Part shown: positions 3,388 through 23,507 of the stretch, piece by piece
How the letters are laid out: each line of letters opens with the position of its first letter
How positions within the stretch are numbered: position 1 is the first letter of the stretch
From: a bacterium
GTDB lineage: Bacteria > Bacteroidota > Ignavibacteria > Kapaibacteriales > UBA961
Reading direction: 5' to 3'
Assembly: GCA_022844575.1 (NCBI GenBank)
Contig: JALHLL010000005.1
Span: 1 to 32,891 of the forward strand
Length of the DNA stretch: 32,891 nucleotides
Position numbers and translations under genes: made by a program
The notes under the pieces: generated by a model
Seen by the model: only the letters and a program-made list of their open reading frames with translations
Database searches by the model: none
What the model was told of the DNA's origin: nothing

Positions 3388-6372
3388 ATGTCGGATCCGC
3401 TTGTACTAGTGCGTAGAGGTAATTCCATGCCCTCACAACAACAAATCGGTCAGTCGAATAATGATAATATAATTGTCAGGAAGTTTGGCACCGGTATGCA
3501 GCCCGGCTTGTCATATACGAATGGCGAAGCACCTTCCGTTTTGCCAATGGAAGAAGTGCCTCAAGTTCCGAAGTCAAAGGCAAAGAAGGGTAATGCGAAA
3601 AAAGCACAGATGTCCATTCCATTTGAAGAACCCATAAGGGATATGTCGCGTCAATGGAAATTATTTGCCGTTTTTTCGATGCTTTTCGCATTTTTACTTA
3701 CTATTGCCTTACTTACGTACTCGCAGTCCGATGCCGCAAATGCAGAACTGAATATGCGAGATGTTTCAGGCATAATGCGTGGTGACGATGAAATGCGTGC
3801 TCGTGCAGATACAACACAAAATTGGCTTGGTTTATTCGGTGCGGTTATCTCTAATTTTCTTTATAACCATACTTTCGGTATTTCAACACTTATGTTGCCT
3901 ATCCTGATTGTATGGTGGGCAAAAAATTTGTTTATAACTCAGTCCATCCCTAAGCCCGTAATGAAAAAAACGGCAATGACAATTAGTTTGGGTATTTGTG
4001 CTGCCGGAATTTTCGGCGTATTTCAGTTAACTACATGGTTACCAACCTTCTCACCAGAGTGGAGTGGGGCTATAGGGCAATTTATGGCTTCGGTGCTTTC
4101 CGATTTTATCGGTAAAATCGGTGCTTTCCTTTTCTTGAGCGTCGGTTTCGTTGCAATACTTTTTGTAGGTGCGGAACTTGATATTGATAAGGCATTAGTT
4201 TGGTTGGCTCAATCCGGCACATATGTAAAAGGACTTTTTGAACGCACTCACAATGATGAGACAATCGAATCAAATGACGATGAGATACAAGTACAGGCAA
4301 ATGTTACACAAAATAACAGTCGCAGTTCGCAAAATGTTCCCTTAGTGATAGATGAAGACGAACCTGCTCAAATTATGCGTCGTGCCGCACGTAGTGCTCC
4401 ACCAGCCGAAAAAACAAATACAGCATCATCACCTAAACGACCGATTATCAGTGATCCGATTATAAAAAGACCTCAGGAGAATACCGGAATCCCGAATATC
4501 AGTATCCCGCATGATCGTGTTATCAATAAAGATGACGTTGCTCGCGAACATACTATTGGTGTGAAACCGATGACAAATCATAACGATTTGCCTCCCCAAC
4601 GTTATCCGACTCCACCGAAAACAGAAAAAAACGATATACCGCGATTAGATGCGGATGAGTTTGCTGTTGATACGAATACCGGTGAAATAACAGCCGAAGG
4701 AAGTGAACAGCTTGTACAAAACAATCTGTTTATCAACGAAAATAATTTTGGTGAAGAACAGATTACGCAGAGCATAGAAGCAGAGCATAATTCTGACAAA
4801 CCTTCACTTATTGTAACGGTGCAGGATAGCCCTATAATGAAAGTAGAAGAAACGGTCGAACCTATTATTGAAGACTTTGACAAGGAGTTGGATTATATTC
4901 CACCCGGTTTAGACTTACTTGCCGACCCTCCCAAAGAAAATAATGAAGTAGATGAAGCAGAACTTGCAATGAATGCACGTTTATTACAAGAAAAACTCGG
5001 TACATTCAAGATAACTATTGAAAACCTTGAAGTAACGCCCGGTCCGGTTGTCACTCAGTATGAATTTGTACCGGCGGCAGGGATTAAGATTTCGCAGATT
5101 GAAAGTCTTTCCGATGACATGGCTTTGGCATTAAAGGCACGTGGTATTAGGATTATTGCACCAATACCGGGCAAGGGTACGGTGGGTATTGAAATTCCAA
5201 ATCATAATCCGACAACAATATATTTTCGAAGTATTATCAATAATCCTCGTTTTAATGATAGTGAACACCGTTTGCCTTTAGCACTCGGTAAAACAATAAG
5301 CGGTGAAGTATATATTGCTGACTTAGCTAAAATGCCGCACTTACTCATTGCCGGAGCTACCGGAGCAGGAAAAAGTGTTGGCGTAAATACAATGATTGCT
5401 TCATTGTTGTATAAAATGCACCCGAAAAATCTAAAGTTGGTATTTATTGATCCAAAGAAAGTAGAAATGTCTTTTTATAGTGCATTGGAAAAACATTTTC
5501 TTGCTTTATGCCCTGATGTAGATGAAAGGATTATTACTAACCCTGCTAATGCGGTGATAATGCTTAAATCGCTTGTTGCCGAGATGGAAAGACGTTATGA
5601 TATTCTTGCCTCGGTCGGACAAAGAAATATAGTGGATTATAATAAGAAAGTAGAAGAAGGAAAATATAAAGACACAACAAAACATGTGCATCGTCAAATG
5701 CCGTATATCGTTGTTGTAATAGATGAGTTAGCAGATTTGATGATGACGGCGGCAAAAGAAGTGGAAGAGCCGATTGCTCGCTTGGCGCAGTTAGCAAGAG
5801 CCATAGGAATACACTTAATCGTAGCTACACAAAGACCAAGTGTTAATGTTATTACCGGCTATATAAAAGCAAATTTTCCGGCTCGTGTGGCATATCAGGT
5901 TGCATCGAAAATAGATTCGAGAACTATTCTTGATATGAATGGTGCCGATCAGCTTTTAGGGAATGGTGATATGCTCTTTTTACCGGGTGGGTCGCCAAAG
6001 CCGATACGATTGCAAAACTCTTTTTTAAGCACGGATGAAGTTGAAGCCATATGTGGATTTATAGGTGAACAGGAGGGGTATTCACAGCCATATATGTTGC
6101 CAAGTGTCATAGGAAAAAATGCGGATAATGATCCGTCGGGCTTGGATTTCGGTGGCAGTCGCGATGCCCTTTTTGCCGATGCGGCATCTATTGTGGTAAC
6201 CCACCAACAAGGTTCTGTTTCACTTTTACAGAGAAGATTGAAGGTAGGATATGCAAGAGCGGCACGTATTATGGATGAATTGGAAGCGTCGGGTATAGTC
6301 GGTCCCTTCGACGGTTCAAAAGCACGCGCCGTTATGGTCGAATCATTAGCCGATTTGGAAGCATATTTATAA
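3388..6372 (+). CDS. ftsK: DNA translocase FtsK/SpoIIIE family
   Basis: FtsK is a septum-anchored hexameric ATPase that pumps chromosome termini into daughter cells and assists XerCD dimer resolution. The 994 residues show the whole architecture: four membrane segments between about residues 91 and 262, a long acidic Pro/Asn-rich linker (about 285-515), and the RecA-like motor with Walker A GATGAGKS at 656-663 and Walker B VVVIDELADLM near 775-785. The C-terminal gamma winged helix is at about 925-985 (DALFADAASIVVTHQQGSVSLLQRRLKVGYARAARIMDELE). This helix recognises polarity sequences such as KOPS. The ATG is supported by AAGGAG eight bases upstream. The N-terminal cytoplasmic tail of about 90 residues is longer than in E. 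coli. A hairpin terminator follows the stop. Confidence 0.97.
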   Translation: MSDPLVLVRRGNSMPSQQQIGQSNNDNIIVRKFGTGMQPGLSYTNGEAPSVLPMEEVPQVPKSKAKKGNAKKAQMSIPFEEPIRDMSRQWKLFAVFSMLFAFLLTIALLTYSQSDAANAELNMRDVSGIMRGDDEMRARADTTQNWLGLFGAVISNFLYNHTFGISTLMLPILIVWWAKNLFITQSIPKPVMKKTAMTISLGICAAGIFGVFQLTTWLPTFSPEWSGAIGQFMASVLSDFIGKIGAFLFLSVGFVAILFVGAELDIDKALVWLAQSGTYVKGLFERTHNDETIESNDDEIQVQANVTQNNSRSSQNVPLVIDEDEPAQIMRRAARSAPPAEKTNTASSPKRPIISDPIIKRPQENTGIPNISIPHDRVINKDDVAREHTIGVKPMTNHNDLPPQRYPTPPKTEKNDIPRLDADEFAVDTNTGEITAEGSEQLVQNNLFINENNFGEEQITQSIEAEHNSDKPSLIVTVQDSPIMKVEETVEPIIEDFDKELDYIPPGLDLLADPPKENNEVDEAELAMNARLLQEKLGTFKITIENLEVTPGPVVTQYEFVPAAGIKISQIESLSDDMALALKARGIRIIAPIPGKGTVGIEIPNHNPTTIYFRSIINNPRFNDSEHRLPLALGKTISGEVYIADLAKMPHLLIAGATGAGKSVGVNTMIASLLYKMHPKNLKLVFIDPKKVEMSFYSALEKHFLALCPDVDERIITNPANAVIMLKSLVAEMERRYDILASVGQRNIVDYNKKVEEGKYKDTTKHVHRQMPYIVVVIDELADLMMTAAKEVEEPIARLAQLARAIGIHLIVATQRPSVNVITGYIKANFPARVAYQVASKIDSRTILDMNGADQLLGNGDMLFLPGGSPKPIRLQNSFLSTDEVEAICGFIGEQEGYSQPYMLPSVIGKNADNDPSGLDFGGSRDALFADAASIVVTHQQGSVSLLQRRLKVGYARAARIMDELEASGIVGPFDGSKARAVMVESLADLEAYL

Positions 6373-8038: not shown

Positions 8039-11000
8039 ATGACTTATGTGCGTTTCGTCGCTATAGCGTTTATCGTTATGGCGGCATCTGTTAACTCCAT
8101 GTCTTCACAAGTCGTCGAAACCCGTTATGAATACGGTTCTTCGCTTGTTCATGATAGCCGGCTTGTTTATGAGCGAGGTTTATTAACGAGAAGCCGTACG
8201 ATTATAGAGGAATCGTTACGGGAATTTGTACATTTTCCTGCTTATGATAAGGCTCAAATTTTATCTTCATTGCAAAGTGCATCATCCAAAAGTTTCAAAA
8301 CGGCGGATGAAATACTTGTGAAGTTGATAATGGAAAGACCTTTATCGCCGGTTATTCCCTATGCGTATCAGTTGCGGGGTATGATAGCATTCGAACAACA
8401 GCGTTTGGATAAAGCATCAACACATTTTTACGAATGTTTCGTTTCGGCTGAAGGTCAGTTTGTTCAGCGTCAAGATTCTCTTTATCATGACATTGCCGCC
8501 ACAAGTTTATTCTGGCGTGGTGTATCGCAAGCAAAAATAGGTTTGAATGATTCGGCTGCCGTATCGTATAAAAAGTGTTATTCGCGTTTTCCTGAACATC
8601 ATCTGGCTGATGATGCACTTTTTTATGATGGTCTGGTACATGAGAATAACAATGATGTCATAAATGCTATTGCCATTTTTGCTCGTTATCGATCTAATTA
8701 TCCTAAACGAAATAATACAGTAGCATCTTGCATCCGAGAAGCGCAAAACAGATTAAAACGCAGACAAGCTGCAATGAGTTTGGTAATACTGGAAAATGGA
8801 GAATCCTCTCGTCAACAAAGTATTACGGAAGAGAAACGTAAGGAATCATTGTTTGAAGTGCAGACGAATGCCGAACATGCAGCCGAAGAAATTTTATTTC
8901 TTAGGGGCGAGGCATATAATCAGTTACGACGTTATGAAGATGCCTTAACCGCATATAAGCAATTATTGAACGATTTTCCGACTACGCATCTATCTTCGCA
9001 AGTACGGCTTGGCATCGGGTGGGCATTGCTTAATCTTAACCGAGCAGAAGAGTCCATTATTGAATTTTCGACAGTTATAGATAGCGTTCAAGACCAAACC
9101 TCACAAGTACGGGCAGCTGCACAACTGTATAGAGCTATTGCTTGGAAGAATAGCGGAAAACGTGATGAAGCATATCGTGAGTTTTCGACATTGTCTGTTC
9201 AATCAGGCTTTCCGTTTCTGGCGCAGGTACTTTTGGAACTTGGGCAGATGTATTATGAGGATGGTAAATATACGGAAGCAAGACGCGCACTCGAACGTGG
9301 TGAAAGGGAGAGTTCCGACGGTTTTATATCGGCAAGAATTCAATTGATTCTCGGCAATTCTTATCTTGAAGAAAGACTTTTTGCCAAAGCGGCGCAGGCA
9401 TTTTCATCCGCAGAATTTCTTGCAAAAAACAGTTCGGTAGAGATGATGCCGCTTAAAAATTCCGTGCTTGCCGAAGCGCGTTTAAAACAAGGTATCGCTT
9501 GGGCTCAGGCAAGCCGATATCGTGATGCAATTCCATCATTGACGGCATTCAGAGCGGAACATGCTGATGATAAGAGGCAAGACGAAGCATTATTCTGGCT
9601 CGGTGAAAGTTTTTATCGTTCTGATATGCTTGCGAATGCCGATGTCTCTTTCCGTGATTTAGTTGATAATTTCCCGACAAGCGGAAGACGCGAAGAAGCT
9701 TTATACGGACTCGGATGGACACATTTCCGACAGCGTCGTTTTGATGCAAGCGGAAAATGGTTTGAAAAATTGGTAAAGGAGTACCCGAAAACGGAATTTG
9801 CTGCCGAAGCACTTGCAAGAAAGGGCGACGGCCATTTTTTAGAGAGACAATTTGCAGCCGCAGCAAAATCGTATGAAGAGGCCGCTAAAAGAGCACCGAA
9901 TACTGCTGAAGGGCGCTATTCCGCTTATCAACTTGGTCATGCTTTACGACGTGCAGGACAATTGGATAGAGCGGTTGATGTATTTAGAAATTATGTGAAA
10001 AAATACTCTCGTTCAGCAAATGCCGATTATGCTCTTTTTTCTATCGGTTTAATTCATTTTCAGGAACAGAAATACGAAACTGCAATTAACGATTTTCGCA
10101 TATTCATAGAAGCATATCCGCAAAGTTCTATGATACCCCGTGCGCAGTATCAAATAGGCGATTGTTATTATAATCAGAGTAATTATCAATCTGCAATTAT
10201 TGAATATAAAAAAGTAATGGAGCAATTCCCAACAAGCCCTTATGCCGGTACTGCTGTAATGGGTATTCAGTATTGTTTGGAAAGTATGGGGCAGAGTGAT
10301 GCGGCCGATTCGTTAACAAGGGCATTTATAAATGCAAATCCATTATCAGCCAATTCGGAAAAATTAATAGTTAATCAAGGTTATAAATTTTATACTAATA
10401 AAAGATTTAATGATGCTATTGCAGAATATGAGAATTACTTAAAAACGTATCCGAATACGGAAAATGCGGCTGAAGCATTATTTTATCTCGGAAAAAGTTA
10501 TATAAATTCAGGGAATACCTTAAAAGCTGAACAATCAATGGATGATTTGGCAAAAAAATATCCTATGAATACTTTTGCACATTTGGGGATTTTGGAATTG
10601 GGTTTAATGCGTTTGCGTTTGAATGAAGCAACAAAAGCAGATTCCATTTTTAGAATTGTTGAGCAAAAATATCCCGATTCTTCAAGTGCTGGGCAAGCAT
10701 TGTTCGAGCGTAGCGTAATTGCATATACTCGCGGCGATACGAATGGTGCCTTAACAGGGTTTACGAAAGTTGCTGATAAATTTCAAGCGACGGAATTTGG
10801 CGATCAGAGTTTGTACAGAATTGCCATGTTCTGGCGTTTGCGCGGTCAATTCGATAGCGCAAGAATACATTTTTCAAAATTAGCTCTACGTGAAGAAAAT
10901 CCTTTAGTTGCTGCGGAAGCTCAATACCGTATCGGGGAGTTATATCTCCGTGAGAGAAAACATAATGAAGCATTAACAGCTTTCTTTACAGCAAGAGATA

Positions 11001-11254
11001 AATATTCCATGGTTGAGGATTGGTTTACTTTATCCATGTTAGGGTTGGGTGAATGTTATGAATTTTTAGGGCAAATTGATGCAGCTAAAGATGTTTACGC
11101 AACATTACAGGAATTGAGAAAAGACGATGATTATGGACGAACGGCGGCGGCTCGGCTAAAGCGGTTGAAAAAAGGAAATTATTCTCCACCGGTGCAATCA
11201 CCACAAAAAGATAGTCTGAATACAAAACCCGAACAAGGAGGGAGCCATGAATAA
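8039..11254 (+). CDS. Large secreted TPR-repeat protein (BamD/CpoB-like solenoid)
   Basis: About 1071 residues from the ATG at 8039, which gives a clean signal peptide (MTYVRFVAIAFIVMAASVNSMSSQ). The ORF track starts 22 codons earlier at a GTG, which would bury that peptide. Almost the whole mature chain is tandem TPR units of about 36 residues, by eye 20-25 of them, many with the periplasmic signature A..LG.....G....A...F......YP. It should form a very long superhelical scaffold in the periplasm or on the inner face of the outer membrane. Short TPR relatives include BamD and CpoB/YbgF. The C-terminal tail is Lys/Pro/Ser-rich and disordered. It overlaps the next gene by 8 bases, whose Shine-Dalgarno lies inside this gene, so the two are translationally coupled. 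Its partner is therefore probably the barrel encoded next. The exact function is unknown. Confidence 0.85.
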   Translation: MTYVRFVAIAFIVMAASVNSMSSQVVETRYEYGSSLVHDSRLVYERGLLTRSRTIIEESLREFVHFPAYDKAQILSSLQSASSKSFKTADEILVKLIMERPLSPVIPYAYQLRGMIAFEQQRLDKASTHFYECFVSAEGQFVQRQDSLYHDIAATSLFWRGVSQAKIGLNDSAAVSYKKCYSRFPEHHLADDALFYDGLVHENNNDVINAIAIFARYRSNYPKRNNTVASCIREAQNRLKRRQAAMSLVILENGESSRQQSITEEKRKESLFEVQTNAEHAAEEILFLRGEAYNQLRRYEDALTAYKQLLNDFPTTHLSSQVRLGIGWALLNLNRAEESIIEFSTVIDSVQDQTSQVRAAAQLYRAIAWKNSGKRDEAYREFSTLSVQSGFPFLAQVLLELGQMYYEDGKYTEARRALERGERESSDGFISARIQLILGNSYLEERLFAKAAQAFSSAEFLAKNSSVEMMPLKNSVLAEARLKQGIAWAQASRYRDAIPSLTAFRAEHADDKRQDEALFWLGESFYRSDMLANADVSFRDLVDNFPTSGRREEALYGLGWTHFRQRRFDASGKWFEKLVKEYPKTEFAAEALARKGDGHFLERQFAAAAKSYEEAAKRAPNTAEGRYSAYQLGHALRRAGQLDRAVDVFRNYVKKYSRSANADYALFSIGLIHFQEQKYETAINDFRIFIEAYPQSSMIPRAQYQIGDCYYNQSNYQSAIIEYKKVMEQFPTSPYAGTAVMGIQYCLESMGQSDAADSLTRAFINANPLSANSEKLIVNQGYKFYTNKRFNDAIAEYENYLKTYPNTENAAEALFYLGKSYINSGNTLKAEQSMDDLAKKYPMNTFAHLGILELGLMRLRLNEATKADSIFRIVEQKYPDSSSAGQALFERSVIAYTRGDTNGALTGFTKVADKFQATEFGDQSLYRIAMFWRLRGQFDSARIHFSKLALREENPLVAAEAQYRIGELYLRERKHNEALTAFFTARDKYSMVEDWFTLSMLGLGECYEFLGQIDAAKDVYATLQELRKDDDYGRTAAARLKRLKKGNYSPPVQSPQKDSLNTKPEQGGSHE
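11235..11242 (+). promoter_or_regulatory. Ribosome binding site of the TPR-coupled barrel gene
   Basis: AAGGAGGG, a strong Shine-Dalgarno, lies within the last codons of the TPR gene, four bases before ATG 11247. It fixes the start of the next gene and the 8-base overlap. Confidence 0.8.
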
Positions 11255-12851
11255 AATGATAATGAAAACATGGTTAGTATTTTGTTTTGGTATCACTTCT
11301 ACAATGATGTGTGTTGCTCAACAAAAGGCACAAACTACAAAAGATGACCCTGTAGAGTTAGCAACCATTGTAATACAAGGAACAGAAGCTGTTGATATAC
11401 CCGGTGGGACAAAACAACCGCCACGCAAGACGTTAGCTTTAACACGCGACCGTTTGGATTCGCTTAATACATTGGAAAAGCATACTGCAATACGTTTACC
11501 TTTTGTAGCTTTACCGACGACATCATTGGAAAAACCAATAACAAAAGGATATGTAAAAGGGGAGTTAGGCCAGTTCTTAACACCGTTACTTGATGCAGGT
11601 TATGGTTTTGCATTAGGTGGTTATCGTTTGGAAGCAAACGGAGGATTGGAGGCGAGCAATGGTCATGTAAACAATGCTGATTTTGCAAACTTCAACTTTT
11701 CTTTAGATGCCGAATATGTAGCACCTGAAAAATTTATCTTTTTCGGAGGTAGTAAAACACAATCCTTTATACGTTTTTCCCGTGATGCACACAATTTATA
11801 CGCTGTTCCGAGCGCTGTGCATCGTTCACTTACGGATTTTAGTGCCGGTGTGAGAACGGATGGCTCATATAACGGATATACATATAGTTTGGGTGGAGAT
11901 TGGAATGCAGGGTCTTTAGCACAATCGAACAATGATGCGGTGAATAATGCACTCCACGGGTTTATAGATGCAACAAAACGTTTTGATGATCTTGTTGTGG
12001 GTGCGGAAGCAAATTTGCAATTTCACACGCTACGGGGTAATGGATTGAATATGATGGATTTTCTTGCAAATGCAAATTATGTGCAGGAAACCTACAAAGT
12101 GCGAGCGAAAGCAGGTTTACAATCATATACGAATGCAAACGGAGCAACATTCGGAGCAATGAAAGTAATTGCTGATGGTGAGTATTTCTTGAATGGGGAT
12201 TTCACATTAGGGGCATTTATTAGGTCGGGATTATTGGAGAATTCGTTTATAAGAATGATGAGAATAAATCCGTATATCTCCAATTCGGCAGAGATAGAGT
12301 ATGCACGTGAAAATATTGCAGTCGGGGCACGTTTATGGTATCATCCTTTGGAGAAGATTGGCATTATGATGAAAGGGACTGTTGCTTCGATTGGTAATTA
12401 CGCCGTTTGGCAGGGCAATCAGCAGGCAAGTTTTGCTTTACGTTATGCTGATGTAATGCTAATTGAGGCGGAAGCTGAAGTTGTTTATACCTATGATGAA
12501 TACAATACATTCAATGCTAATGTTCAAACACGTTCCATAAAGACTGCAAAAGAAAGTACATTATCATATATTTTGCCTTTTCAAACGTCCATTCGTTGGA
12601 ATAGAACTTGGAATAATGAAATAGGCACGCAGTTAACAGCAAGTTATATGGGGACACGTTCAACAGGCAGTAATAATGTACCTCAACTTTCAGGATATAT
12701 TGATCTTTCATTAAGGGCAACATATTCTTTCAATTCAGTACTTCAAGGATATATTCGCGTTGATAATATTACGAACTCTACCATTTTTGTATGGGAGGGG
12801 TATAAAGAACGCGGTATATTTTTTGCTGTGGGTGTTTTGTGTAATTTTTGA
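11247..12851 (+). CDS. TonB-receptor-like outer-membrane barrel protein without recognisable plug
   Basis: This is a 534-residue secreted protein with a signal peptide (MIMKTWLVFCFGITSTMMCVAQQ). Just after it comes ELATIVIQGTEAVDIPGGTKQPPRK, resembling the region around the TonB box and first plug strand of TonB-dependent receptors. A short Pro-rich stretch follows. From about residue 100 to the end there are repeated amphipathic strands with aromatic girdle residues, ending in LRATYSFNSVLQGYIRVDNITNSTIFVWEGYKERGIFFAVGVLCNF, a typical receptor C-terminus (N-x-x-D/N pattern, last residue Phe). There is no room for a full plug of about 120-150 residues. It starts inside the TPR gene and lies in an operon with SPOR and TonB proteins. 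I infer a plugless or mini-plug barrel working with the TPR scaffold and TonB. The substrate is unknown. Confidence 0.75.
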   Translation: MNKMIMKTWLVFCFGITSTMMCVAQQKAQTTKDDPVELATIVIQGTEAVDIPGGTKQPPRKTLALTRDRLDSLNTLEKHTAIRLPFVALPTTSLEKPITKGYVKGELGQFLTPLLDAGYGFALGGYRLEANGGLEASNGHVNNADFANFNFSLDAEYVAPEKFIFFGGSKTQSFIRFSRDAHNLYAVPSAVHRSLTDFSAGVRTDGSYNGYTYSLGGDWNAGSLAQSNNDAVNNALHGFIDATKRFDDLVVGAEANLQFHTLRGNGLNMMDFLANANYVQETYKVRAKAGLQSYTNANGATFGAMKVIADGEYFLNGDFTLGAFIRSGLLENSFIRMMRINPYISNSAEIEYARENIAVGARLWYHPLEKIGIMMKGTVASIGNYAVWQGNQQASFALRYADVMLIEAEAEVVYTYDEYNTFNANVQTRSIKTAKESTLSYILPFQTSIRWNRTWNNEIGTQLTASYMGTRSTGSNNVPQLSGYIDLSLRATYSFNSVLQGYIRVDNITNSTIFVWEGYKERGIFFAVGVLCNF

Positions 12852-12893
12852 TGTTGATGAAACATTGAATTAAACTTTACGAAAGGTTCTTCC

Positions 12894-14357
12894 ATGGTGG
12901 ACAAAAATGTTCTTAATGATGAATTCGGTGGCTTCGATAGTGCCGACAGCGAGACATTTGCGCTTGAAGGACTAACGGCATACCCGGGAGAATCGCAAGG
13001 ATTTATTATACCAAAACCTCAACCCGAGATTCAAAGTGAAGAATTACCATTACAAGAGACGGAGGCTCCGGAGGTGGAAGCTTCGACTTTTGAACAGCAA
13101 ATAATGGAGAGTGATACTATTGAGGAAAACATATCAATTGATGAAGATTTATTACGTGCTTTGCAGCAGGATTTGATTAAAAGCAGGCAGAAGAAAGAGC
13201 TTATTGAAGAACAACAACCGCCCGTTGAAGAACAGGATTTTATTGAGTTTGAAACGGACTCAAACACCGAAACCATTGACCTTGCTGATATAAAAGCTGA
13301 ACATCCTTCATCGTTTATGGTACACGAAGAACCCGTTCAGGCTTCGAAAGTAACGGATATGCCTGATTCAGGCGGGTATGGGGGATATGCCGCGTTGGCA
13401 CAAGATATGGTCAGTGAAAACAGCGATACGATTCCACCTATAGTGGAGGAAAACCGAAAAAAGGAGAAAAAATCTTTACCCTTTTTTAATAAGAAAACCT
13501 TGTTAATTGCTGCTTCAATAGCCGGGATCGCTGTGTTGGGTTTATCGGCGTATATGCTTACACCGGCAATAAAAGGAGTGTTTGCCTCGAAGGATACGGA
13601 TTCTACCAAAGTTGAAAATCACGATAATCAAGCGCACAAAAAAGAGGAAGAACACAAAACAGAGGGCGAGCATAAACAGGATGCCCACGCTGAATCAAAA
13701 CCACATAGCGATGATAAGGCAATTACCGCCATTCCCGATTCATTGTTGGATGAGATAGCGGATGATACAAAACATGATGAACATGTAGCGGAAGCGAACA
13801 GTCACAATTCTGCAACATCTCATGAAAAACCTAAATCCGATGTTAAAAAACATGCGGAGGAAAAACATGCCGAGCCGAAACATGAACCGAAGCCGATTAA
13901 AGAAAAACATCCTGAAAAAGAGCACAAATCCGTTAAGGAAAATATAGCTCATCATAAAGAAAAAGAGGATAAACATAGTACCCCCTCAGCTGTCGAAAAA
14001 CAGCCTCAAAAAAATATTATAGCAAAAAAAGAACATCATGAGAAAGAAATACCTCATGAAACAAAACAAAAAGTTGAAGAGATTCCGGTAAAAAAAGAGC
14101 AGGCGACAACATCCGATAAAGTAGTGAAACCGTTGTTTACTATTCAGGTATATGCAACACCATCGAAAAATGAAGCGGAACGTTGGCTAAGTAAGTTACG
14201 TTCCTCTTCGGCAAATGCGCCGGTAATAACGACACAGCAAATTCGTGATAAAACATGGTACAGGGTACGTTTCGGAAATTTTTCATCGCGCGATGAAGCC
14301 GAGAAAGCTATTAGAAGTTTAGGCTATGACCAATGTTGGATTGATAGAGTACGTTAA
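12894..14357 (+). CDS. SPOR-domain membrane protein with His/Lys/Glu-rich linker
   Basis: The 487-residue protein has an acidic Glu/Gln-rich cytoplasmic region (1-195), one membrane segment (about 201-222, LLIAASIAGIAVLGLSAYML), an extremely charged periplasmic linker (about 240-405) and a C-terminal SPOR domain (412-487). The SPOR domain shows FTIQVYATPSKNEAERWLSKL and WYRVRFGNFSSRDEAEKAIRSL. SPOR domains bind denuded glycan strands at division septa. The linker holds about 20 His among Lys and Glu, with few hydrophobics, and should be an extended tether that crosses the peptidoglycan or binds metal ions. AAAGG lies nine bases before the ATG. It is 42 bases downstream of the barrel gene and 17 upstream of tonB. 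The long acidic cytoplasmic part resembles Bacteroidota SPOR proteins and is not FtsN-like in sequence. Confidence 0.88.
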   Translation: MVDKNVLNDEFGGFDSADSETFALEGLTAYPGESQGFIIPKPQPEIQSEELPLQETEAPEVEASTFEQQIMESDTIEENISIDEDLLRALQQDLIKSRQKKELIEEQQPPVEEQDFIEFETDSNTETIDLADIKAEHPSSFMVHEEPVQASKVTDMPDSGGYGGYAALAQDMVSENSDTIPPIVEENRKKEKKSLPFFNKKTLLIAASIAGIAVLGLSAYMLTPAIKGVFASKDTDSTKVENHDNQAHKKEEEHKTEGEHKQDAHAESKPHSDDKAITAIPDSLLDEIADDTKHDEHVAEANSHNSATSHEKPKSDVKKHAEEKHAEPKHEPKPIKEKHPEKEHKSVKENIAHHKEKEDKHSTPSAVEKQPQKNIIAKKEHHEKEIPHETKQKVEEIPVKKEQATTSDKVVKPLFTIQVYATPSKNEAERWLSKLRSSSANAPVITTQQIRDKTWYRVRFGNFSSRDEAEKAIRSLGYDQCWIDRVR

Positions 14358-14374
14358 TATAATACGATAATCTG

Positions 14375-15136
14375 ATGAGAGAAATTGAAAATATACCGGT
14401 CGGTTTAACCATTAAAATTCCATGGGAGCGTTTTACTGCGCGAGGTTTTGGTATTTCGCTCATTATTGTGCCGTTATTACTCTATATCATGTCCTTAACG
14501 CAATGTAACATTGCCCCGCCACGAGAAACTGAAATAAGAGGTATTGAATTAATACAATTGAAATGGGGAGATGGTGACGGTACGGGTAATAAAGGCGGTA
14601 ATTTACAGAAAGAGGGTATAAAAAAAACAGGCAAACAACCTTCACTTGATATTGAGGATGCTGCACGTGCAACAAAGACGAAAACAAGTACAACAGCTGA
14701 AACGGATATAAATAGTGCTACGAATGTAAAACCCGTAAAAGAATTGGGGAGTGCTACGGCAAATACCGGAGCGGCAACGGGAACAAAAGAGTTGGGTGCC
14801 GGAAAAGAAGGTTTGATAACGGGAACAGGGTTAGGTAATTTGGGAGATGGTGCCGGAAGCGGAGAAGGATGGGGTTTACAATGGGGTGGTGGCGGAAACC
14901 GCTCCGTTATGTTCAAGAAAATTCCTAAGTATCCCGAAGGTGCTACTGCTACATTGATAAGAGTAAAGTTTCGAGTTACGCCTGAAGGTACGGTAGGGCA
15001 AATGAATTTTACGACAAAAGGTGATCCGCAGTTGGAAAATGAGGTAATGAAAGCACTAAGGATGTGGCGATTTAATAAGATAAAGGACGATAAGGAGATG
15101 GAAGGTACGATAACATTCTCATTCCGTTCAAATTAG
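14375..15136 (+). CDS. tonB: Energy transducer TonB family protein
   Basis: TonB links the inner-membrane proton motive force (through ExbB/ExbD) to outer-membrane receptors. The 253-residue protein has one membrane segment (about 26-43), a long spacer, and a TonB C-terminal domain (about 175-251) with KIPKYPEGATATLIRVKFRVTPEGTVGQMNFTTKGDPQLENEVMKALRMWRFNK. The YP..A....V..RF.V...G.V pattern and the WRF motif are diagnostic. The spacer (about 60-170) is rich in Gly, Thr, Ala and Lys and nearly free of the usual Pro-Glu/Pro-Lys repeats, which is atypical. ExbB and ExbD are not in the window. It follows the SPOR gene by 17 bases and its stop touches the next ORF, placing it in the TPR-barrel operon, probably energising that barrel. 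Confidence 0.88.
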   Translation: MREIENIPVGLTIKIPWERFTARGFGISLIIVPLLLYIMSLTQCNIAPPRETEIRGIELIQLKWGDGDGTGNKGGNLQKEGIKKTGKQPSLDIEDAARATKTKTSTTAETDINSATNVKPVKELGSATANTGAATGTKELGAGKEGLITGTGLGNLGDGAGSGEGWGLQWGGGGNRSVMFKKIPKYPEGATATLIRVKFRVTPEGTVGQMNFTTKGDPQLENEVMKALRMWRFNKIKDDKEMEGTITFSFRSN

Positions 15137-15147
15137 TGTTTTTAATA

Positions 15148-15321
15148 ATGCAGGATATTGTACAATACTTTTCGGAAATACCAACATTCGGTTTGGCTAT
15201 AATCGCGATTTTTTTTGTCGGGATCGTATTTGCAATTCTCAGAAAATTAATAAAGTTTGCTATAACACTTGCGGCTCTTATTATTATGGTTTTGGTGATA
15301 ATACGATTGCTTCAGCATTAA
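15148..15321 (+). CDS. Small two-helix membrane protein of unknown function
   Basis: From ATG 15148 this is 57 residues: MQDIVQYFSEIP, then two hydrophobic helices (TFGLAIIAIFFVGIVFAIL and FAITLAALIIMVLVIIRLL) separated by the basic RKLIK. The GTG at 15136 overlaps the tonB stop and would add four residues; either is possible. It matches no family I recognise. It is the last gene of the TPR-barrel-SPOR-TonB set. By position it may be a small partner of the TonB complex, but nothing in the sequence proves this. Confidence 0.6.
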   Translation: MQDIVQYFSEIPTFGLAIIAIFFVGIVFAILRKLIKFAITLAALIIMVLVIIRLLQH

Positions 15322-15396: not shown

Positions 15397-16731
15397 ATGC
15401 CTCAAACGCTTGGAATAGTAGGTACGGGTTATGTAGGACTTGTAACTGGAACATGTTTTGCCGAAAGCGGCAACCGGGTTATTTGTGTTGATATTGACGA
15501 AAAAAAAGTAAATGACTTACGCCAAGGGATTATGCCCATATTTGAACCCGGGTTGGAGCATTTATTAGAAAGAAATATTAAAAACGGACGATTGACATTT
15601 ACAACCGATTTGAATGAAGCGGTGGAAAAATCATCCGTACTTTTCTTATGCCTACCTACGCCACCTGATGAAGATGGTTCAGCCGATTTGCAATATGTGT
15701 TGGGGGTTGCTAAAGATGCCGCCACAATTATTAAAGAAAAAGATATCCGTGATTTTAAAGTATTTGTCAATAAAAGCACGGTTCCGGTACAAACGGCTGA
15801 AAAAGTAACTGCAATAGTAAGAAATGCAGCCCCTGAATATCCGATTGCAGTTGTAAGTAATCCCGAATTTTTAAGAGAGGGCTTTGCAGTTGAGGATTTT
15901 ATGAAGCCGGACAGAATTGTTGTCGGTGCTTCGGATGAAAGAGCAATTTCAATAATGCGCGATTTGTATGAGCCGTTTGTGCGTAGCGGTAACCCAATCT
16001 TTTTTATGGATGAAAAAAGTGCCGAAATAACCAAGTATGCTGCGAATTGTTATTTGGCTATGCGCATTTCGTTTATGAATGAACTTTCGTATTACTGTGA
16101 ACAGGTTGGTGCCGATATTGAGCAAATACGCATGGGTATAGGTTCCGATTCGAGAATAGGTAAAAGATTTTTATTTGCAGGATTGGGATATGGCGGCAGT
16201 TGTTTTCCGAAAGACGTAAAAGCTCTTATTCACTCAACTGATGCGGCAAATACGCCGTTAGGTTTGGTAAAAGCAGCTGAAGAGGCAAATTATCGCCAAT
16301 CGGATCGCTTTTTTGAAAAAATTCAAAAACGTTTTGACACGTTAGAAGGAAAGCGTTTCGCTTTATGGGGTTTGGCTTTTAAGCCGAATACCGATGATAC
16401 AAGGGAAGCACCTGCTTTTCGGTTAATACAACGTCTGCTTGATGCCGGTGCAAATATTACTGCTTATGATCCCGAAGCTATGGAAAATACGAAGCGATTT
16501 TTTGGCGATCGAGTGCAGTATGCAGTTGATTCGATGGAATGTTTGAATGATACTGATGCCTTAATAATTGCGACTGAATGGAATGAGTTTCGGAGTCCTG
16601 ACTTTGAGGCGGTGAAGAAATCGCTACGATTGCCGATTATTTTCGATGGTCGTAATTTATTCGATCCTGATGATATGGATAATAGGGGATTAGAATATTA
16701 TAGTATCGGACGCAGAACAGTTACTGCTTAA
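15397..16731 (+). CDS. ugd: UDP-glucose 6-dehydrogenase
   Basis: The enzyme oxidises UDP-glucose twice with NAD to UDP-glucuronate, a precursor for capsule, exopolysaccharide or lipopolysaccharide sugars. The 444 residues are the normal length. The Rossmann start LGIVGTGYVGLVTGTCFAE and VDIDEKK are intact. The catalytic loop GLGYGGSCFPKD places the nucleophile at Cys269, and VNKSTVPVQTAE and FKPNTDDTREAPAF are family motifs. AGGAAA lies nine bases before the ATG. It sits 75 bases after the small membrane protein, so it may be read from the same operon or its own promoter. GDP-mannose dehydrogenase is the closest alternative, but the motifs fit Ugd better. Confidence 0.94.
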   Translation: MPQTLGIVGTGYVGLVTGTCFAESGNRVICVDIDEKKVNDLRQGIMPIFEPGLEHLLERNIKNGRLTFTTDLNEAVEKSSVLFLCLPTPPDEDGSADLQYVLGVAKDAATIIKEKDIRDFKVFVNKSTVPVQTAEKVTAIVRNAAPEYPIAVVSNPEFLREGFAVEDFMKPDRIVVGASDERAISIMRDLYEPFVRSGNPIFFMDEKSAEITKYAANCYLAMRISFMNELSYYCEQVGADIEQIRMGIGSDSRIGKRFLFAGLGYGGSCFPKDVKALIHSTDAANTPLGLVKAAEEANYRQSDRFFEKIQKRFDTLEGKRFALWGLAFKPNTDDTREAPAFRLIQRLLDAGANITAYDPEAMENTKRFFGDRVQYAVDSMECLNDTDALIIATEWNEFRSPDFEAVKKSLRLPIIFDGRNLFDPDDMDNRGLEYYSIGRRTVTA

Positions 16732-16969: not shown

Positions 16970-17548
16970 ATGTCAGACGATAATGATGCTTTAGATGAAA
17001 AGCCGGCGAAAGCCAAGAAAGAAGGCGGCGGTATGAAGACGGTTTTGATGGCAGCCGTAGCAGGTTTGCTTGTTGCCGTTGTATTCGGAGCCGGTATTTT
17101 TCTTGGTGTGAAGTTTTTCGGGGGTTCACATGAAGAAGCCGATGCAAAAGATAAACATGGCAAAACGGCAAAAAAGGAGCATGTTGAAGAAGGGGAAGAA
17201 GAAGCGGATGAAGATATAGGACCTGTGGACGAAGACGGCAATCCGTTGCCGAGATTGGTTGTTGGTACCGAGGACTTTATCGTCAACCCGAATGGTTCGG
17301 ATCGTTATGTCGTTGTTAACCTTGGTATAGAAGTTAATTCGGAAGAAGCAAAGGCAAAAGTGGAAAAAGATCTGATGATACCCATTAGGCATGGTGTGTT
17401 GAAAGTATTACAGCGTTTTACGATCAATGATTATCAGCGTGTTTCATTACGTGATTCGCTTCCGAAAATCATTAAAAAAGAAATTAAACCGTATATCATC
17501 GGTACAAAAGTGAGTAATATTTATATTTCCAAATTCATCATCCAATAA
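16970..17548 (+). CDS. fliL: Flagellar basal-body-associated protein FliL
   Basis: FliL surrounds the stators at the motor and tunes torque. The 192-residue protein has a short charged cytoplasmic start, one membrane helix (about 27-50, VLMAAVAGLLVAVVFGAGIFLGVKFF), a highly acidic and His/Lys-containing linker (about 53-85), and the FliL periplasmic domain (about 92-192). That domain shows FIVNPNGSDRYVVVNLGIEV, the helix around RHGVLKVLQRFTI, LRDSLPKIIKKEIKPYI and the terminal VSNIYISKFIIQ. The linker is longer and more acidic than usual. It is first in fliL-fliM-fliN-fliO, 15 bases before fliM. Confidence 0.9.
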   Translation: MSDDNDALDEKPAKAKKEGGGMKTVLMAAVAGLLVAVVFGAGIFLGVKFFGGSHEEADAKDKHGKTAKKEHVEEGEEEADEDIGPVDEDGNPLPRLVVGTEDFIVNPNGSDRYVVVNLGIEVNSEEAKAKVEKDLMIPIRHGVLKVLQRFTINDYQRVSLRDSLPKIIKKEIKPYIIGTKVSNIYISKFIIQ

Positions 17549-17563
17549 ATGTAATCAATAGTT

Positions 17564-18601
17564 ATGGCTGATGTACTTTCACAAAATGAGATTGACAGTT
17601 TACTTTCCGTAATGGGTACGGGAGGTATGGATGTTGATAATGTGATAGGAAGTAGTGCCATGAGCGGCAGCGATGCCGTTAACTATGATTTTCGGCGACC
17701 GAACAGGATATCGAAAAATCAAGTTAGGATGTTGCAAAATGTTCATGAGAATTTTGCAGAAGCATTCGGCTATTATTTGGTCTCCAAATTACAGACGGTT
17801 GTTTCGATTAACGTAACATCTATTGATCAGCTTTTTTATTCGGAATTTATTCTTTCCGTTTCGAATCCGAGTTGTATTTACGTTTTTGATATAGTAGGTG
17901 CTGATGGAAGCGGAATAATGGAAATTAGTCCGCAATTAGCATTAACCTTAGTGGAAAGACTATTAGGCGGAACATCTGAAGCGGTACGTAAAGCCCGTTC
18001 GATAACGCCTATAGAACAAGCCGTTATCCGCGGAATGATCGAACATGCTTTTTCCGATCTATCGAATGCGTGGCGTGCAATGGCAGACCTCACATTTCGA
18101 TATTCGCGTTTGGAAACGGAAGCGGATTTCGTACAAATTGCTCCTTCATCGGAAATAGTGGTTGTGGTTTCTTTTGATGTGAATGTCGGCATGAATCAAT
18201 ATCTGATGAATTTATGCTTTCCGACATTTGCTCTTGAAGATGTTCTGACTCAACTCAATAGACAGCAACTTACGCCTGCCGCAAGATTTACATCCGAACG
18301 TCAGAAAGAAAATATGCAGATTTTGCGTCAGCAATTATCGCATACATATCTTCCTGTACAGGCACTTTTGGGCAAGGCGAGTATTGGCGTGGGCGAGTTG
18401 TTGGAATTAAAAGTTGGCGATGTGCTGAAACTGAATACTCGCATCAATCAGGAAATTGAAGTAATTATTGCCGGAAGAAGAAAATTAGCCGCGAGACCGG
18501 GTGCGGTTGACGGGAAAAAGTCCGTGAAAATTACACGTACTTTACAACAGGATGATCTGGTAGATATTGATACACTCTACAAAAGAAATGGAGAGTTTTA
18601 A
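17564..18601 (+). CDS. fliM: Flagellar motor switch protein FliM
   Basis: FliM forms the C-ring switch with FliG and FliN. The 345-residue protein begins with the CheY-binding peptide LSQNEIDSLLSVM (5-17), followed by a linker, the CheC-like middle domain (about 50-235, with RPNRISKNQVRMLQNVHENFAEAF at its start and the family's ERLLGG motif) and a SpoA surface-presentation domain (about 260-335, VGELLELKVGDVLKLNTRINQEIEVIIAGRRKLAARPG). All parts are present. The stop overlaps the fliN start (TAATG), so they are translationally coupled. The intact phospho-CheY peptide implies chemotactic control of the motor, though no che genes are in the window. Confidence 0.95.
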   Translation: MADVLSQNEIDSLLSVMGTGGMDVDNVIGSSAMSGSDAVNYDFRRPNRISKNQVRMLQNVHENFAEAFGYYLVSKLQTVVSINVTSIDQLFYSEFILSVSNPSCIYVFDIVGADGSGIMEISPQLALTLVERLLGGTSEAVRKARSITPIEQAVIRGMIEHAFSDLSNAWRAMADLTFRYSRLETEADFVQIAPSSEIVVVVSFDVNVGMNQYLMNLCFPTFALEDVLTQLNRQQLTPAARFTSERQKENMQILRQQLSHTYLPVQALLGKASIGVGELLELKVGDVLKLNTRINQEIEVIIAGRRKLAARPGAVDGKKSVKITRTLQQDDLVDIDTLYKRNGEF

Positions 18602-19020
18602 TGACGCAAGAAGAAATAGATGCTCTCATAAATAGTGGTGCCGTTGAAGCGGATGGCTCAAAACAAACACAGCAACAATTTCAGGCAACAGCGTTTACAC
18701 CGCAGTTTCAGGAGTTTGCTGCCGAACGAAGAGCAGGCGGTGAACTGACCAATGAAGAAGCACGCCTCTCCATGCTATACGATTTGCAATTACCGGTTTC
18801 GATTGAATTGGGTAACACGAATATGCTTATCCGCGATATATTGAAATTAAGCCGGGGTTCTGTTATCGAGTTTGATAAACTAGTAAGTGAGCCTGTTGAT
18901 ATTCTTGTAAATGGTAAAAAAGTTGCCGAGGGCGAAGTCGTTGTTATTGATAAACATTTCGGTATAAGAATAACATCACTTGTTGAACCCGGTGAGCGAC
19001 TTCGGGGAGTTCGTCGTTAA
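18601..19020 (+). CDS. fliN: Flagellar motor switch protein FliN, with a FliM-like N-terminal peptide
   Basis: FliN makes the lower ring of the switch and helps export. The 139-residue protein has a SpoA domain (about 58-136, MLYDLQLPVSIELGNTNMLIRDILKLSRGSVIEFDKLVSEPVDILVNGKKVAEGEVVVID) typical of FliN. Its first residues MTQEEIDALINSG match the EIDxLL peptide of FliM/FliY that binds CheY, which short enterobacterial FliN lacks. It is therefore between FliN and FliY in type, but no CheC phosphatase domain is present. The ATG overlaps the fliM stop. Confidence 0.93.
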   Translation: MTQEEIDALINSGAVEADGSKQTQQQFQATAFTPQFQEFAAERRAGGELTNEEARLSMLYDLQLPVSIELGNTNMLIRDILKLSRGSVIEFDKLVSEPVDILVNGKKVAEGEVVVIDKHFGIRITSLVEPGERLRGVRR

Positions 19021-19035
19021 TTAGCAGGAAAAAAA

Positions 19036-19428
19036 ATGTTAGACCCTACATTATTAAAAGCATTTATTACCATGCTTGCCGCAGTAGTCGGTCTTTCTCT
19101 GTTATTATTTATTCTAAAGAAAAGAATCGCCATTAAAGGGCGTGTCGCATCGAATCCTTCATCATTATATGTTGATGCAAGAGTACCCCTTACACCGAAA
19201 AGCCAAGCCATAGTATTACATTACGGTGAAAGACGATTTCTTATCGGAGTAACGGAAAATTCGGTTAATCTTATTGCCGATATAAGTGACACGGAACGAA
19301 AGAAACTTTCCGATAAATCCAATGATAAAAAAGTAGTATCTGAAGAAACGGATATTCTTGAACCTCAACTTCCAGAAGATCTTTCCTTCACTGCTTTCCT
19401 GAAAAGCATCAGCCGCCGCGAATCCTAA
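19036..19428 (+). CDS. fliO: Flagellar biosynthesis protein FliO
   Basis: FliO is a small membrane protein that helps assemble the FliP export gate. The 130-residue protein has an N-terminal membrane helix (about 9-27, FITMLAAVVGLSLLLFILKK) and a basic cytoplasmic domain with RVPLTPKSQAIVLHYGERRFLIGVTENSVNLIADI, the FliO pattern of L.p...l.lv.vg.r..lig.. The start has AGGA nine bases upstream, 15 bases after fliN. The usual next gene, fliP, is absent; the cluster ends here. Confidence 0.8.
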   Translation: MLDPTLLKAFITMLAAVVGLSLLLFILKKRIAIKGRVASNPSSLYVDARVPLTPKSQAIVLHYGERRFLIGVTENSVNLIADISDTERKKLSDKSNDKKVVSEETDILEPQLPEDLSFTAFLKSISRRES

Positions 19429-19617
19429 TCGCAAAAAAGTGTTAAAAGCCCTACGGAATTGTAACTTAAAGGTTAACAGGTCGTATTTTCGCCATGCTAA
19501 AATGCTATTGTGATTTTTTACCTTCTTTTGTCGGCATCGCTCCTTACTATCAAACAGAGAGGAAGCGAATCGTTTACTTTCGTTTATAACTATTTAATCA
19601 TTTCTTTAAGAGTAATT

Positions 19618-20355
19618 ATGAAGGGCATATTTCTTAGTTGCATACTTATTGTATGTACATGTATTTCTGCTCAATCGCAAACCCTCGAATCCATCATTGC
19701 AGGGTATCAAAAAGCGATTGGCGGAGCAGAAAAGCTGAATTCTTTTGTAAGTGTTGTCATAAAAGCAAAATCGCAAGGCGGTGGCGGCGGACAAAAAAGA
19801 CCAATGACATTTACGGTAAAATTACCGGATAAAGCAAGAATGGATTATAGCTTTCAACCCGGTTTGGTATATATTCAGGCATTTGACGGCAAAGTAGGAT
19901 GGACTGTACAACCATGGACAGGATCGTCGGATGCACAACCCCTGAACGATGACGATGCAAAGGAAGCTCAACGCATTACAAAAATGGTGCATAATGATTT
20001 GATAATAAATGGTAAGGACGGTACAAAATTAGAGTATAAAGGAAAAGATGAAATAGAGGGCTCGGAAGTGTATAAAGTGTCGGCAACAAGAAGTGACGGC
20101 TCGGTAGTTGTATATTATCTTGATACCGATTCGTATTTAATTGTAAAAACGACAACTAAATATATGAATTCGGGTGTTGCGGTTGAAAGCGAATTATTTC
20201 CGAGTGATTATAAAACGGTAAACGGCTTTACATTAGCATATACCTTTGAAACGAAATCGAATGGTGAAGTAACAAGTGCCAACTATGTGGAGATGTATGA
20301 CTTTACTACAAAAGTGGACGATTCTTTTTTTACAATGCCTGCTAAAAAGCAGTAA
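19618..20355 (+). CDS. Secreted LolA-like outer-membrane lipoprotein-sorting protein
   Basis: From ATG 19618 this is 245 residues with a signal peptide (MKGIFLSCILIVCTCISAQSQ). The ORF-track start at 19510 adds 36 unlikely residues in front of it. The mature part is of LolA/LolB-fold type: LESIIAGYQKAIGGAEKL, then TFTVKLPDKARMDYSF, GLVYIQAFDGKVGWTVQPW, and VYYLDTDSYLIVKTTTKY, with the alternating strands expected of a half-barrel that holds a lipid acyl chain. This family is common in Bacteroidota as peripheral members without a clear sorting role, so classical LolA function is not assured. It lies 24 bases before the VPS10-like gene, in a likely operon, and well after fliO (189 bases). Confidence 0.72.
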   Translation: MKGIFLSCILIVCTCISAQSQTLESIIAGYQKAIGGAEKLNSFVSVVIKAKSQGGGGGQKRPMTFTVKLPDKARMDYSFQPGLVYIQAFDGKVGWTVQPWTGSSDAQPLNDDDAKEAQRITKMVHNDLIINGKDGTKLEYKGKDEIEGSEVYKVSATRSDGSVVVYYLDTDSYLIVKTTTKYMNSGVAVESELFPSDYKTVNGFTLAYTFETKSNGEVTSANYVEMYDFTTKVDDSFFTMPAKKQ

Positions 20356-23300: not shown

Positions 23301-23507
23301 GGAACTGTATCGCAATTCGCTGGAAAACCTAGCGAGGAACAAATGAAACGTATTGGCAATCTTGATCAGGAATTATTTAATACACGTAAACGTTTGAATG
23401 ACATTCTGACTAAAGATATAAAGGATATTAATATTCTTTTAAAAGCGGAAAAAATGCCTGAAATTTCACTTCTTACACGTGAACAATTCGATAAACAAGA
23501 AGGGTAA
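20379..23507 (+). CDS. VPS10/sortilin-like Asp-box beta-propeller secreted protein
   Basis: This is a 1042-residue exported protein with signal peptide FLIIILCFGLFSDIYKTEAQ. Residues about 40-700 carry at least eleven Asp-box motifs (SxDxGxTW/F): SKDNGTTF at 82-89, then TTDAGETW, TTDGGKTF, SIDGGKTW, SEDRGESW, SDDGGKTF, TFDRGVTW, SYNHGDTW, STSGGKSW, STNYGRSW and SIDGGETW near 690. They define one ten-bladed or two fused propellers like VPS10/sortilin, exo-sialidase or oligoxyloglucanase folds. About 760-850 reads as an Ig-like domain (MKVEILDKKTNQVIATIPAAKRKGVNLLSWD), and the rest is helical. It is often annotated as a glycosyl hydrolase; I see no catalytic residues that prove this. AGAGG precedes the ATG. 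A terminator follows the stop. Confidence 0.82.
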   Translation: MRNIYFLIIILCFGLFSDIYKTEAQMLTPYTFGTMRARELGPATSSGRITAIEALYINQEAGKKDRRLTIYVGSAAGGVYKSKDNGTTFKALFEKEKNQSIGCMALDPRHQDSVLWVGTGESNVRNSVSIGGGLYKTTDAGETWKLLGLEKVERIAKIALNSKNPDIALVAGMGALWSDSDQRGLYRTTDGGKTFEKVLYVDEKTGCADVVIDPENPSICYAAMWQFRRMAWTFNSGGPGSGLYKSIDGGKTWKKMSKDIPSGDLGRIIIAISPSKPNVIYSMIESKESGLYRSEDRGESWKRMSNAVSVTARPFYFSCLYVDPYNENRVYRPSFQLGISDDGGKTFNGFNYGGGAHADHHALWIDPENPQHLLLGTDGGVYRTFDRGVTWSQFRNLPLAQFYRISHDFEEPYNVFGGLQDNGSWMVPHKITGGWVIQNRNWEPTGWGDGFAVVRDRANPDILYFESQGGSAVRRHISSNEVKPISPFEEKGEKKLRFNWNTPIAQSPTNNKTLYIGSQYLHRSYNHGDTWERISPDLTTNDSAKYNPTESGGVTKDNTSAENHCTIYSIAESTIDEKIIWIGTDDGNIQVSTSGGKSWENITASLASLVPKNTWVSCVEPSHFDKATIYATFDNHTRGDHKTYILKSTNYGRSWKQLTSDSLRGFAHVIREDLVNKDLLFVGTELGLYVSIDGGETWANFRNEIPNVPVRDMVIHPKEHDLIIATHGRGVFIIDDINPLRALKKNVLAEELVFLPTRPTEMSFSSGFQEFSGSDEFNAANPNNSARIAYYLKARHMIGEMKVEILDKKTNQVIATIPAAKRKGVNLLSWDMSTKPPRVAISQNTGGGNWGYTVLSGEYTVRVTKNGKEYSTNLVINEDKKSIHKPQDRIAQFEAMKKMWMMIDDLAFISEQTTSVRDSLRKVLLTAVSGSQARTKGEKIISSLDSLHKTIIAEKSSLFADTEDKLREKLASIYGTVSQFAGKPSEEQMKRIGNLDQELFNTRKRLNDILTKDIKDINILLKAEKMPEISLLTREQFDKQEG

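Follow-up and report, generated by a model that had tools for sequence, protein, structure and literature searches.

The window analysed here is an entire contig (C5; JALHLL010000005.1, 32,891 nucleotides) of the 3.3-Mb draft genome of a Candidatus Kapabacteria member (assembly GCA_022844575.1). Five tightly spaced genes on its forward strand, at positions 8039–15321, encode in order a tetratricopeptide repeat (TPR) solenoid protein, a plugless outer-membrane barrel of the TonB-receptor type, a SPOR-domain protein, a TonB-family protein and a very small membrane protein, here called mini (Table 1). The TPR and barrel genes overlap by 8 bases and the gaps that follow are 42, 17 and 11 bases; the last is counted from the ATG codon of the mini gene, and a GTG start would make that gene abut the TonB gene. 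An earlier note on this DNA, made from the sequence alone, had described five packed genes running in the same direction, and the open reading frames, lengths, overlap and gaps are all as it claimed. We find that this cluster is the Kapabacterial form of a real, phylum-wide gene module which, as far as could be searched, is undescribed as a module.

Table 1. Genes and sequence features of the module in the window.
Feature	Positions	Strand	Size or residues	Basis or remarks
TPR solenoid protein	8039..11254	+	1071 aa	Signal peptide; repeats resembling YbgF/CpoB and YfiO; ~27 helical hairpins
Plugless TonB-receptor-type barrel, 22 strands	11247..12851	+	534 aa	AlphaFold2, Foldseek
TonB-box-like motif DDPVELATIVIQGTEA	11343..11390	+	residues 33–48	In the barrel's disordered N-terminal tail
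Second tail motif KxxPxxxxxLxxxxLDSLNxLEK	11412..11480	+	residues 56–78	Candidate binding site
Bitopic SPOR protein	12894..14357	+	487 aa	Topology read from sequence
TonB-family force transducer	14375..15136	+	253 aa	Domain and profile searches
Mini protein, two-helix membrane hairpin	15148..15321	+	57 aa	Basic loop LRKLIKFAI

Among 99 relatives surveyed in the order (Kapaibacteriales), 98 have the barrel, almost always at one locus. In a first synteny set of 20 loci from ten families of the order, the gene order TPR-barrel-SPOR-TonB was kept in all 20 while the flanks changed, with the TonB of L044 lying elsewhere (L and G numbers denote surveyed loci and genomes, and labels such as f27 or f32 the family groupings of the survey). 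A second set of 80 loci, retrieved through TonB, gave the full order in 58; the others are cut by contig ends or have a diverged TPR gene or an unlinked TonB. Because the same gene order recurs amid changing flanks, the cluster is far beyond chance, and a fortuitous cluster of housekeeping genes was ruled out on the same ground.

A profile search across GTDB Bacteroidota found relatives of the barrel in 84 of 118 genomes sampled from the phylum. Of 58 loci from 32 families outside the order, all retrieved with the barrel profile, 51 have TPR upstream and 41 have SPOR downstream; ExbB/TolQ plus ExbD/TolR genes occur in 36 and TonB in 32 (the ExbB, ExbD, SPOR and HU domains were confirmed by a domain check), and the full form is TPR-barrel-SPOR-ExbB-ExbD-TonB. 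The TolQ/TolR-like motor of those 36 operons is absent from the Kapabacterial operon; its proteins score best or near-best with TolQ/TolR models, below the curated cut-offs. The neighbourhood survey that the earlier note had proposed, with scattering as its preset adverse outcome, therefore finds the genes scattered neither in the order nor in the phylum. The five-gene composition that it gave holds in the order, and it missed that other lineages carry a TolQ/TolR-like motor of their own. A search of the accessible literature (subscription papers were outside its scope) returned no description of the module, in keeping with the note's "undescribed".

The TPR protein, in which no lipobox cysteine was seen, matches TPR families in domain searches (TPR_6, E = 9e-66) and gives a weak match to TPR_Slam. 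TIGR02795 (tol_pal_ybgF) matches many of its repeats, with 301 bits summed over repeats, and the PRK10803 CpoB model reaches 147 bits, short of the cut-off of 383. Its AlphaFold2 model is all helical, with ~54 helices and a mean predicted local distance difference test score (pLDDT) of 89.6, and a fold search found generic TPR superhelices as the closest structures and no global match. Length, domains and model agree with the 1071-residue TPR scaffold of the earlier note.

AlphaFold2, run with a 20-sequence alignment, models the barrel protein (pLDDT 84) as a mostly disordered tail and, from residue 102, a barrel of 22 strands. A plug domain (PF07715) was found neither by domain searches nor in this model, and no family scored above its cut-off in the domain searches. 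The best 50 Foldseek matches are all TonB-dependent transporters, BtuB first and OprC and ZnuD among them; solved structures include no relative of the whole barrel, the matches to TonB-dependent transporters there being partial only. These results fit the plugless, receptor-like barrel first read from the sequence. The tail, modelled as disordered yet holding some of the protein's most conserved residues, carries two motifs. The first has the order consensus P-[LI]-E-L-P-E-F-[IV]-I-x-G-K-E (G45 invariant, P35 and L38 above 90% in 20 sequences) and is also common, with the consensus ELPEFVITG, to other families of the class; from its general likeness to TonB boxes we take it to be a candidate box. 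In the second, K56 and P59 are invariant and L70 and K78 exceed 90%.

In the SPOR protein an acidic cytoplasmic part, whose N-terminal motif is conserved, is followed by a single membrane helix (around residues 200–222), a charged periplasmic linker and a C-terminal SPOR domain (PF05036, E = 1e-14), the domain type that the earlier note had named. Its match to the full FtsN model is weak (22 bits; cut-off 108). The ligand of SPOR domains is denuded septal glycan. Among 35 SPOR partners in other families, the cytoplasmic end matches a bacterial HU domain in 16 and an HU-CCDC81 domain in 11, which may connect DNA across the membrane with the cell wall; SPOR partners bearing HU or HU-CCDC81 domains are found, for example, at L164:9639-11633 and L186:6888-7955.

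The TonB-family protein consists of a membrane anchor with an FTARGF motif, a glycine-rich periplasmic linker, a conserved WGGGGNR and a module-type C-terminal domain. Its C-terminus scores 29.5 bits with TIGR01352, just above the cut-off of 27.1, which bears out the family assignment made earlier, and 21.9 bits with Pfam TonB_C, just below the cut-off; a profile of the module TonB C-terminal domain retrieves TonB structures. All 80 order C-terminal domains fit the module profile of other lineages over the conventional one (median 80 versus 9 bits). The membrane anchors fit conventional TonB in 65 of 80, a signal that common ancestry or composition could inflate, the conventional TonBs being from the same order. 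A strict NTx[RK][GA]F-type anchor motif is present in 40 of 80 order module TonBs (0.3 of 80 expected after shuffling), 7 of 8 conventional TonBs and 0 of 33 module TonBs of other lineages. Each of 12 order genomes examined has two adjacent ExbD genes and no more, and eight intact order loci have ExbB-ExbD-ExbD and then another TonB, away from the module operon (the copy in the window genome is cut by a contig end). A module-type C-terminus joined to a conventional-like anchor suggests an outer-membrane end dedicated to the module and a motor end adapted to a shared motor, and on these sequence features the Kapabacterial module TonB probably uses the genome's single ExbB-ExbD-ExbD motor in common with the second TonB. 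What had been called a "private" TonB is thus module-specific in its C-terminal domain and probably not in its motor. The TonB of L154 (contig CAIOZA010000007.1, another Ignavibacteria metagenome-assembled genome) is 42% identical to that of the window.

Domain searches gave no family above cut-off for the mini protein. A hydrophobic mini reading frame (~57 residues) follows TonB in 58 of 78 order loci versus 7 of 400 random positions, and the proteins align almost without gaps. Since it stays beside TonB even at loci where the two lie apart from the rest of the module (L102, L106, L116 and L150), mini appears to be a partner of TonB. It is a real gene, as listed in the earlier note, which missed that it tracks TonB and not the operon.

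The distribution of the module is complementary to that of Tol-Pal. In a separate scan of 61 order genomes, TolB was found in none at the TIGR02800 cut-off, the matches being propeller pieces only. Strong full-length TolB matches occur in 26 of the 118 phylum genomes (24 above the cut-off and 2 just below), all of them in f28, which the presence of the FMO protein in 6 of 6 genomes tested identifies as Chlorobiaceae; two Chlorobiaceae loci (L229 and L230) read TolQ-TolR-TolA-TolB-Pal-Pal-CpoB, and three f28 genomes tested gave no match to the giant TPR protein. Altogether 84 genomes have the module barrel only, 26 TolB only, 8 neither and 0 both (one f28 barrel match, a partial receptor match, was excluded from the count). 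This exclusion is complete, with a nominal Fisher p of 2e-19 that overstates the evidence because the exclusion rests on one clade. Canonical tol-pal, whose presence the earlier note had named as an adverse outcome, is not found in genomes with the module: the note had seen no Tol-Pal genes here, and TolB is indeed absent from the order and from every module genome among the 118; the window operon has no gene for Pal (an OmpA-type lipoprotein), a genome-wide Pal search not having been made. Genome G103 (FMO-positive, a single 3.3-Mb contig) and the sampled genomes of f23, f41 and f53 have no recognisable module barrel, and no TolB where it was searched for; they hold either a diverged module or a third solution. 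A 2025 survey (PMC12204202) could identify no tol-pal loci in Bacteroidetes and treats as an open question how Bacteroidota constrict and stabilise the outer membrane without Tol-Pal; its accessible part makes no mention of this module.

From the gene set, synteny, folds, TonB domain types and distribution established above we infer contacts between the proteins, sharing of the motor, a septal location and a function, as follows. We put at about an even chance that the module is a trans-envelope machine driven by the proton-motive force (PMF), with a Tol-Pal-like job in the Bacteroidota that lack Tol-Pal; it would tie together the two membranes and the peptidoglycan between them, and its place of action is probably the division site. 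An ExbB/TolQ-ExbD/TolR motor, the module's own in most lineages, would energise the TonB-family protein; in Kapabacteria the genome's single ExbB-ExbD-ExbD set probably powers it, perhaps aided by mini. Given the box-like tail motif and the module-specific TonB C-terminal domain, it is likely that this domain takes the barrel's N-terminal tail and that TonB pulls on it, so that the outer membrane would be drawn from inside through the plugless barrel. The SPOR protein would steer the assembly to denuded septal glycan, and the TPR solenoid, standing in for CpoB/TolB in the periplasm, would hold the tail of the barrel along with other partners and would help to close the pore, the tail and the TPR protein being the candidates for closing the barrel lumen. 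More tentatively, and clearly short of even confidence, the module may be the missing Bacteroidota equivalent of Tol-Pal in which TonB pulls the plugless barrel and SPOR also reaches the nucleoid through its HU-like domain in many lineages, coupling chromosome, septal wall and outer membrane. If the idea is right, the module adds to the Ton/Tol motor family a third branch in which the object pulled is a plugless barrel. Bacteroidota are a phylum that is dominant in gut, soil and ocean, and a candidate that is nearly universal, has most of its genes together and comes with a definite gene list can be tested directly.

Several known systems resemble the module, which would work in the manner of a Ton/Tol system. 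With Tol-Pal (TolQ-TolR-TolA-TolB-Pal-CpoB, as in Escherichia coli and at the two Chlorobiaceae loci) it shares a TonB/TolA-type transducer and an operon, in addition to the complementary distribution; outside Kapabacteria many of its operons carry a PMF motor close to the TolQ/TolR type, and its TPR protein has YbgF/CpoB-like repeats. It is not a member of that system, since the operon has no TolB and no Pal; its TPR protein is four times larger, its outer-membrane part is a plugless barrel, SPOR is in the operon and the transducer's C-terminal domain is of TonB and not TolA type. The Ton system (ExbB-ExbD-TonB plus TonB-dependent transporters) has the same barrel fold, a TonB C-terminal domain and TonB boxes like the candidate one here, but the module barrel lacks a plug and so is not a TonB-dependent transporter, the transducer's C-terminal type is its own, and the TPR and SPOR partners are additional. 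Slam, which also combines TPR with an outer-membrane barrel, is one polypeptide with a 14-strand barrel and no motor, whereas in the module the two parts are separate genes and the barrel has 22 strands. Natural fusions, which would have spoken for contact between the proteins, were found in none of 201 loci. The bitopic division proteins FtsN and DamX resemble the SPOR protein in having a cytoplasmic part, one membrane helix, a long linker and a C-terminal SPOR domain; they differ in the weakness of the full FtsN match and the HU-like domain of many module orthologues. PorE has been proposed to fill the same gap (PMC12204202); it is one lipoprotein that combines propeller and peptidoglycan-binding domains, and none of the module's genes is part of it. 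The Bacteroidota β-barrel assembly machinery (BAM; BamG, BamH and others; PMC12611786, PMC12578637) is likewise phylum-wide, in the outer membrane and equipped with a second barrel, but it has no TonB, SPOR or giant TPR subunit. The module barrel was rejected as a BAM subunit, as BamG is FadL-like and the barrel's Foldseek matches are TonB-dependent transporters.

Several observations weigh against a Tol-Pal-like machine. The Tol-Pal exclusion is one clade and hence one evolutionary contrast, and eight sampled genomes, FMO-positive G103 included, have neither system. The module holds no Pal-like anchor from outer membrane to peptidoglycan, a barrel of 22 strands seems a strange choice if tethering is its only task, and PorE, a proposed fusion of CpoB, TolB and Pal parts, has already been put forward for the same role (PMC12204202). 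Linkage of the motor and SPOR genes to the rest is not strict, Flavobacteria-like f32 retaining only the TPR-barrel adjacency. The motor-contact histidine of the TonB helix is absent from the window protein and from 72 of 80 order orthologues, and present in 23 of 33 module TonBs elsewhere. FtsE lies divergently upstream of the module in f32 and f37, and FtsK 2–3 kb upstream of the module barrel in f33, f34, f49 and f54. With the SPOR domain these neighbours give the module a division-related setting, which counts in favour of the reading, as do the HU-like domains of SPOR partners; the nearness of FtsE and FtsK is, however, limited to some families and was not compared with a background rate.

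The strongest alternative, which we nevertheless think rather unlikely, is a TonB-energised machine for outer-membrane export or assembly, in which the barrel would be a wide gate opened by TonB and the TPR protein a scaffold capturing cargo such as surface lipoproteins, glycans or another envelope polymer. A plugless 22-strand barrel makes a more fitting gate than tether, Slam too is laid out as TPR plus barrel (the weak TPR_Slam match above), in L182 the genes immediately before the barrel are LolA and a TIGR00374 flippase-like gene, and the module is phylum-wide in single copy; SPOR and HU-like parts are not expected of an exporter, however, the barrel family is not of the 14-strand Slam type, and the complementary distribution involves Tol-Pal, which is itself no exporter.

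It is improbable, in our judgement, that the operon joins two separate units that form no single machine, namely a TPR-barrel pair and a SPOR-motor-TonB division unit. The pair stands alone in f32, f27, f36 and f38 and is the sole adjacent pair also in f29 and f50, and barrel-SPOR-motor-TonB stay together with TPR unlinked in f33, f34, f49 and f54 (the TPR gene of G163 is on another contig). Yet the barrel joins both halves, since in almost every lineage it adjoins one or other of them, and wherever the barrel occurs the TonB C-terminal domain of module type is conserved.

A peptidoglycan-anchored special Ton system that imports or senses one essential substrate through a degenerate transporter would account for the barrel fold, the TonB C-terminal type and the box-like motif, but is very improbable, as the barrel lacks a plug that could gate or bind a substrate, the module is near-universal in a metabolically diverse phylum, the order genomes tested each have 13–24 ordinary plug-bearing receptors already and another TonB beside ExbB-ExbD-ExbD, and the TPR and SPOR partners are left unexplained. 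On balance we favour a Tol-Pal-like role in division or envelope stability over export, two adjacent units and special import, with a confidence near the midpoint of the scale. The earlier note's suggestion of an energised export, assembly or division-linked constriction system finds partial support.

Other genes of the window flank the module. An FtsK DNA translocase of 994 residues with all its domains (3388–6372) lies ~1.7 kb upstream of the TPR gene, and RecX and a small barrel gene on the reverse strand lie between them. Downstream are UDP-glucose dehydrogenase (15397–16731) and, directly after it at 16970–19428, FliL (16970), a FliM-like gene (17564) and small genes, the FliL and FliM names being ones that we presume from reading the sequence and not from a family search; the order TonB-UDP-glucose dehydrogenase-FliL-FliM recurs in a large part of the window's family and at L048, and nowhere else. 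Farther on, a LolA-like gene (19510–20355) adjoins the gene for a 1042-residue protein with sortilin/BNR-type repeats (20379–23507).

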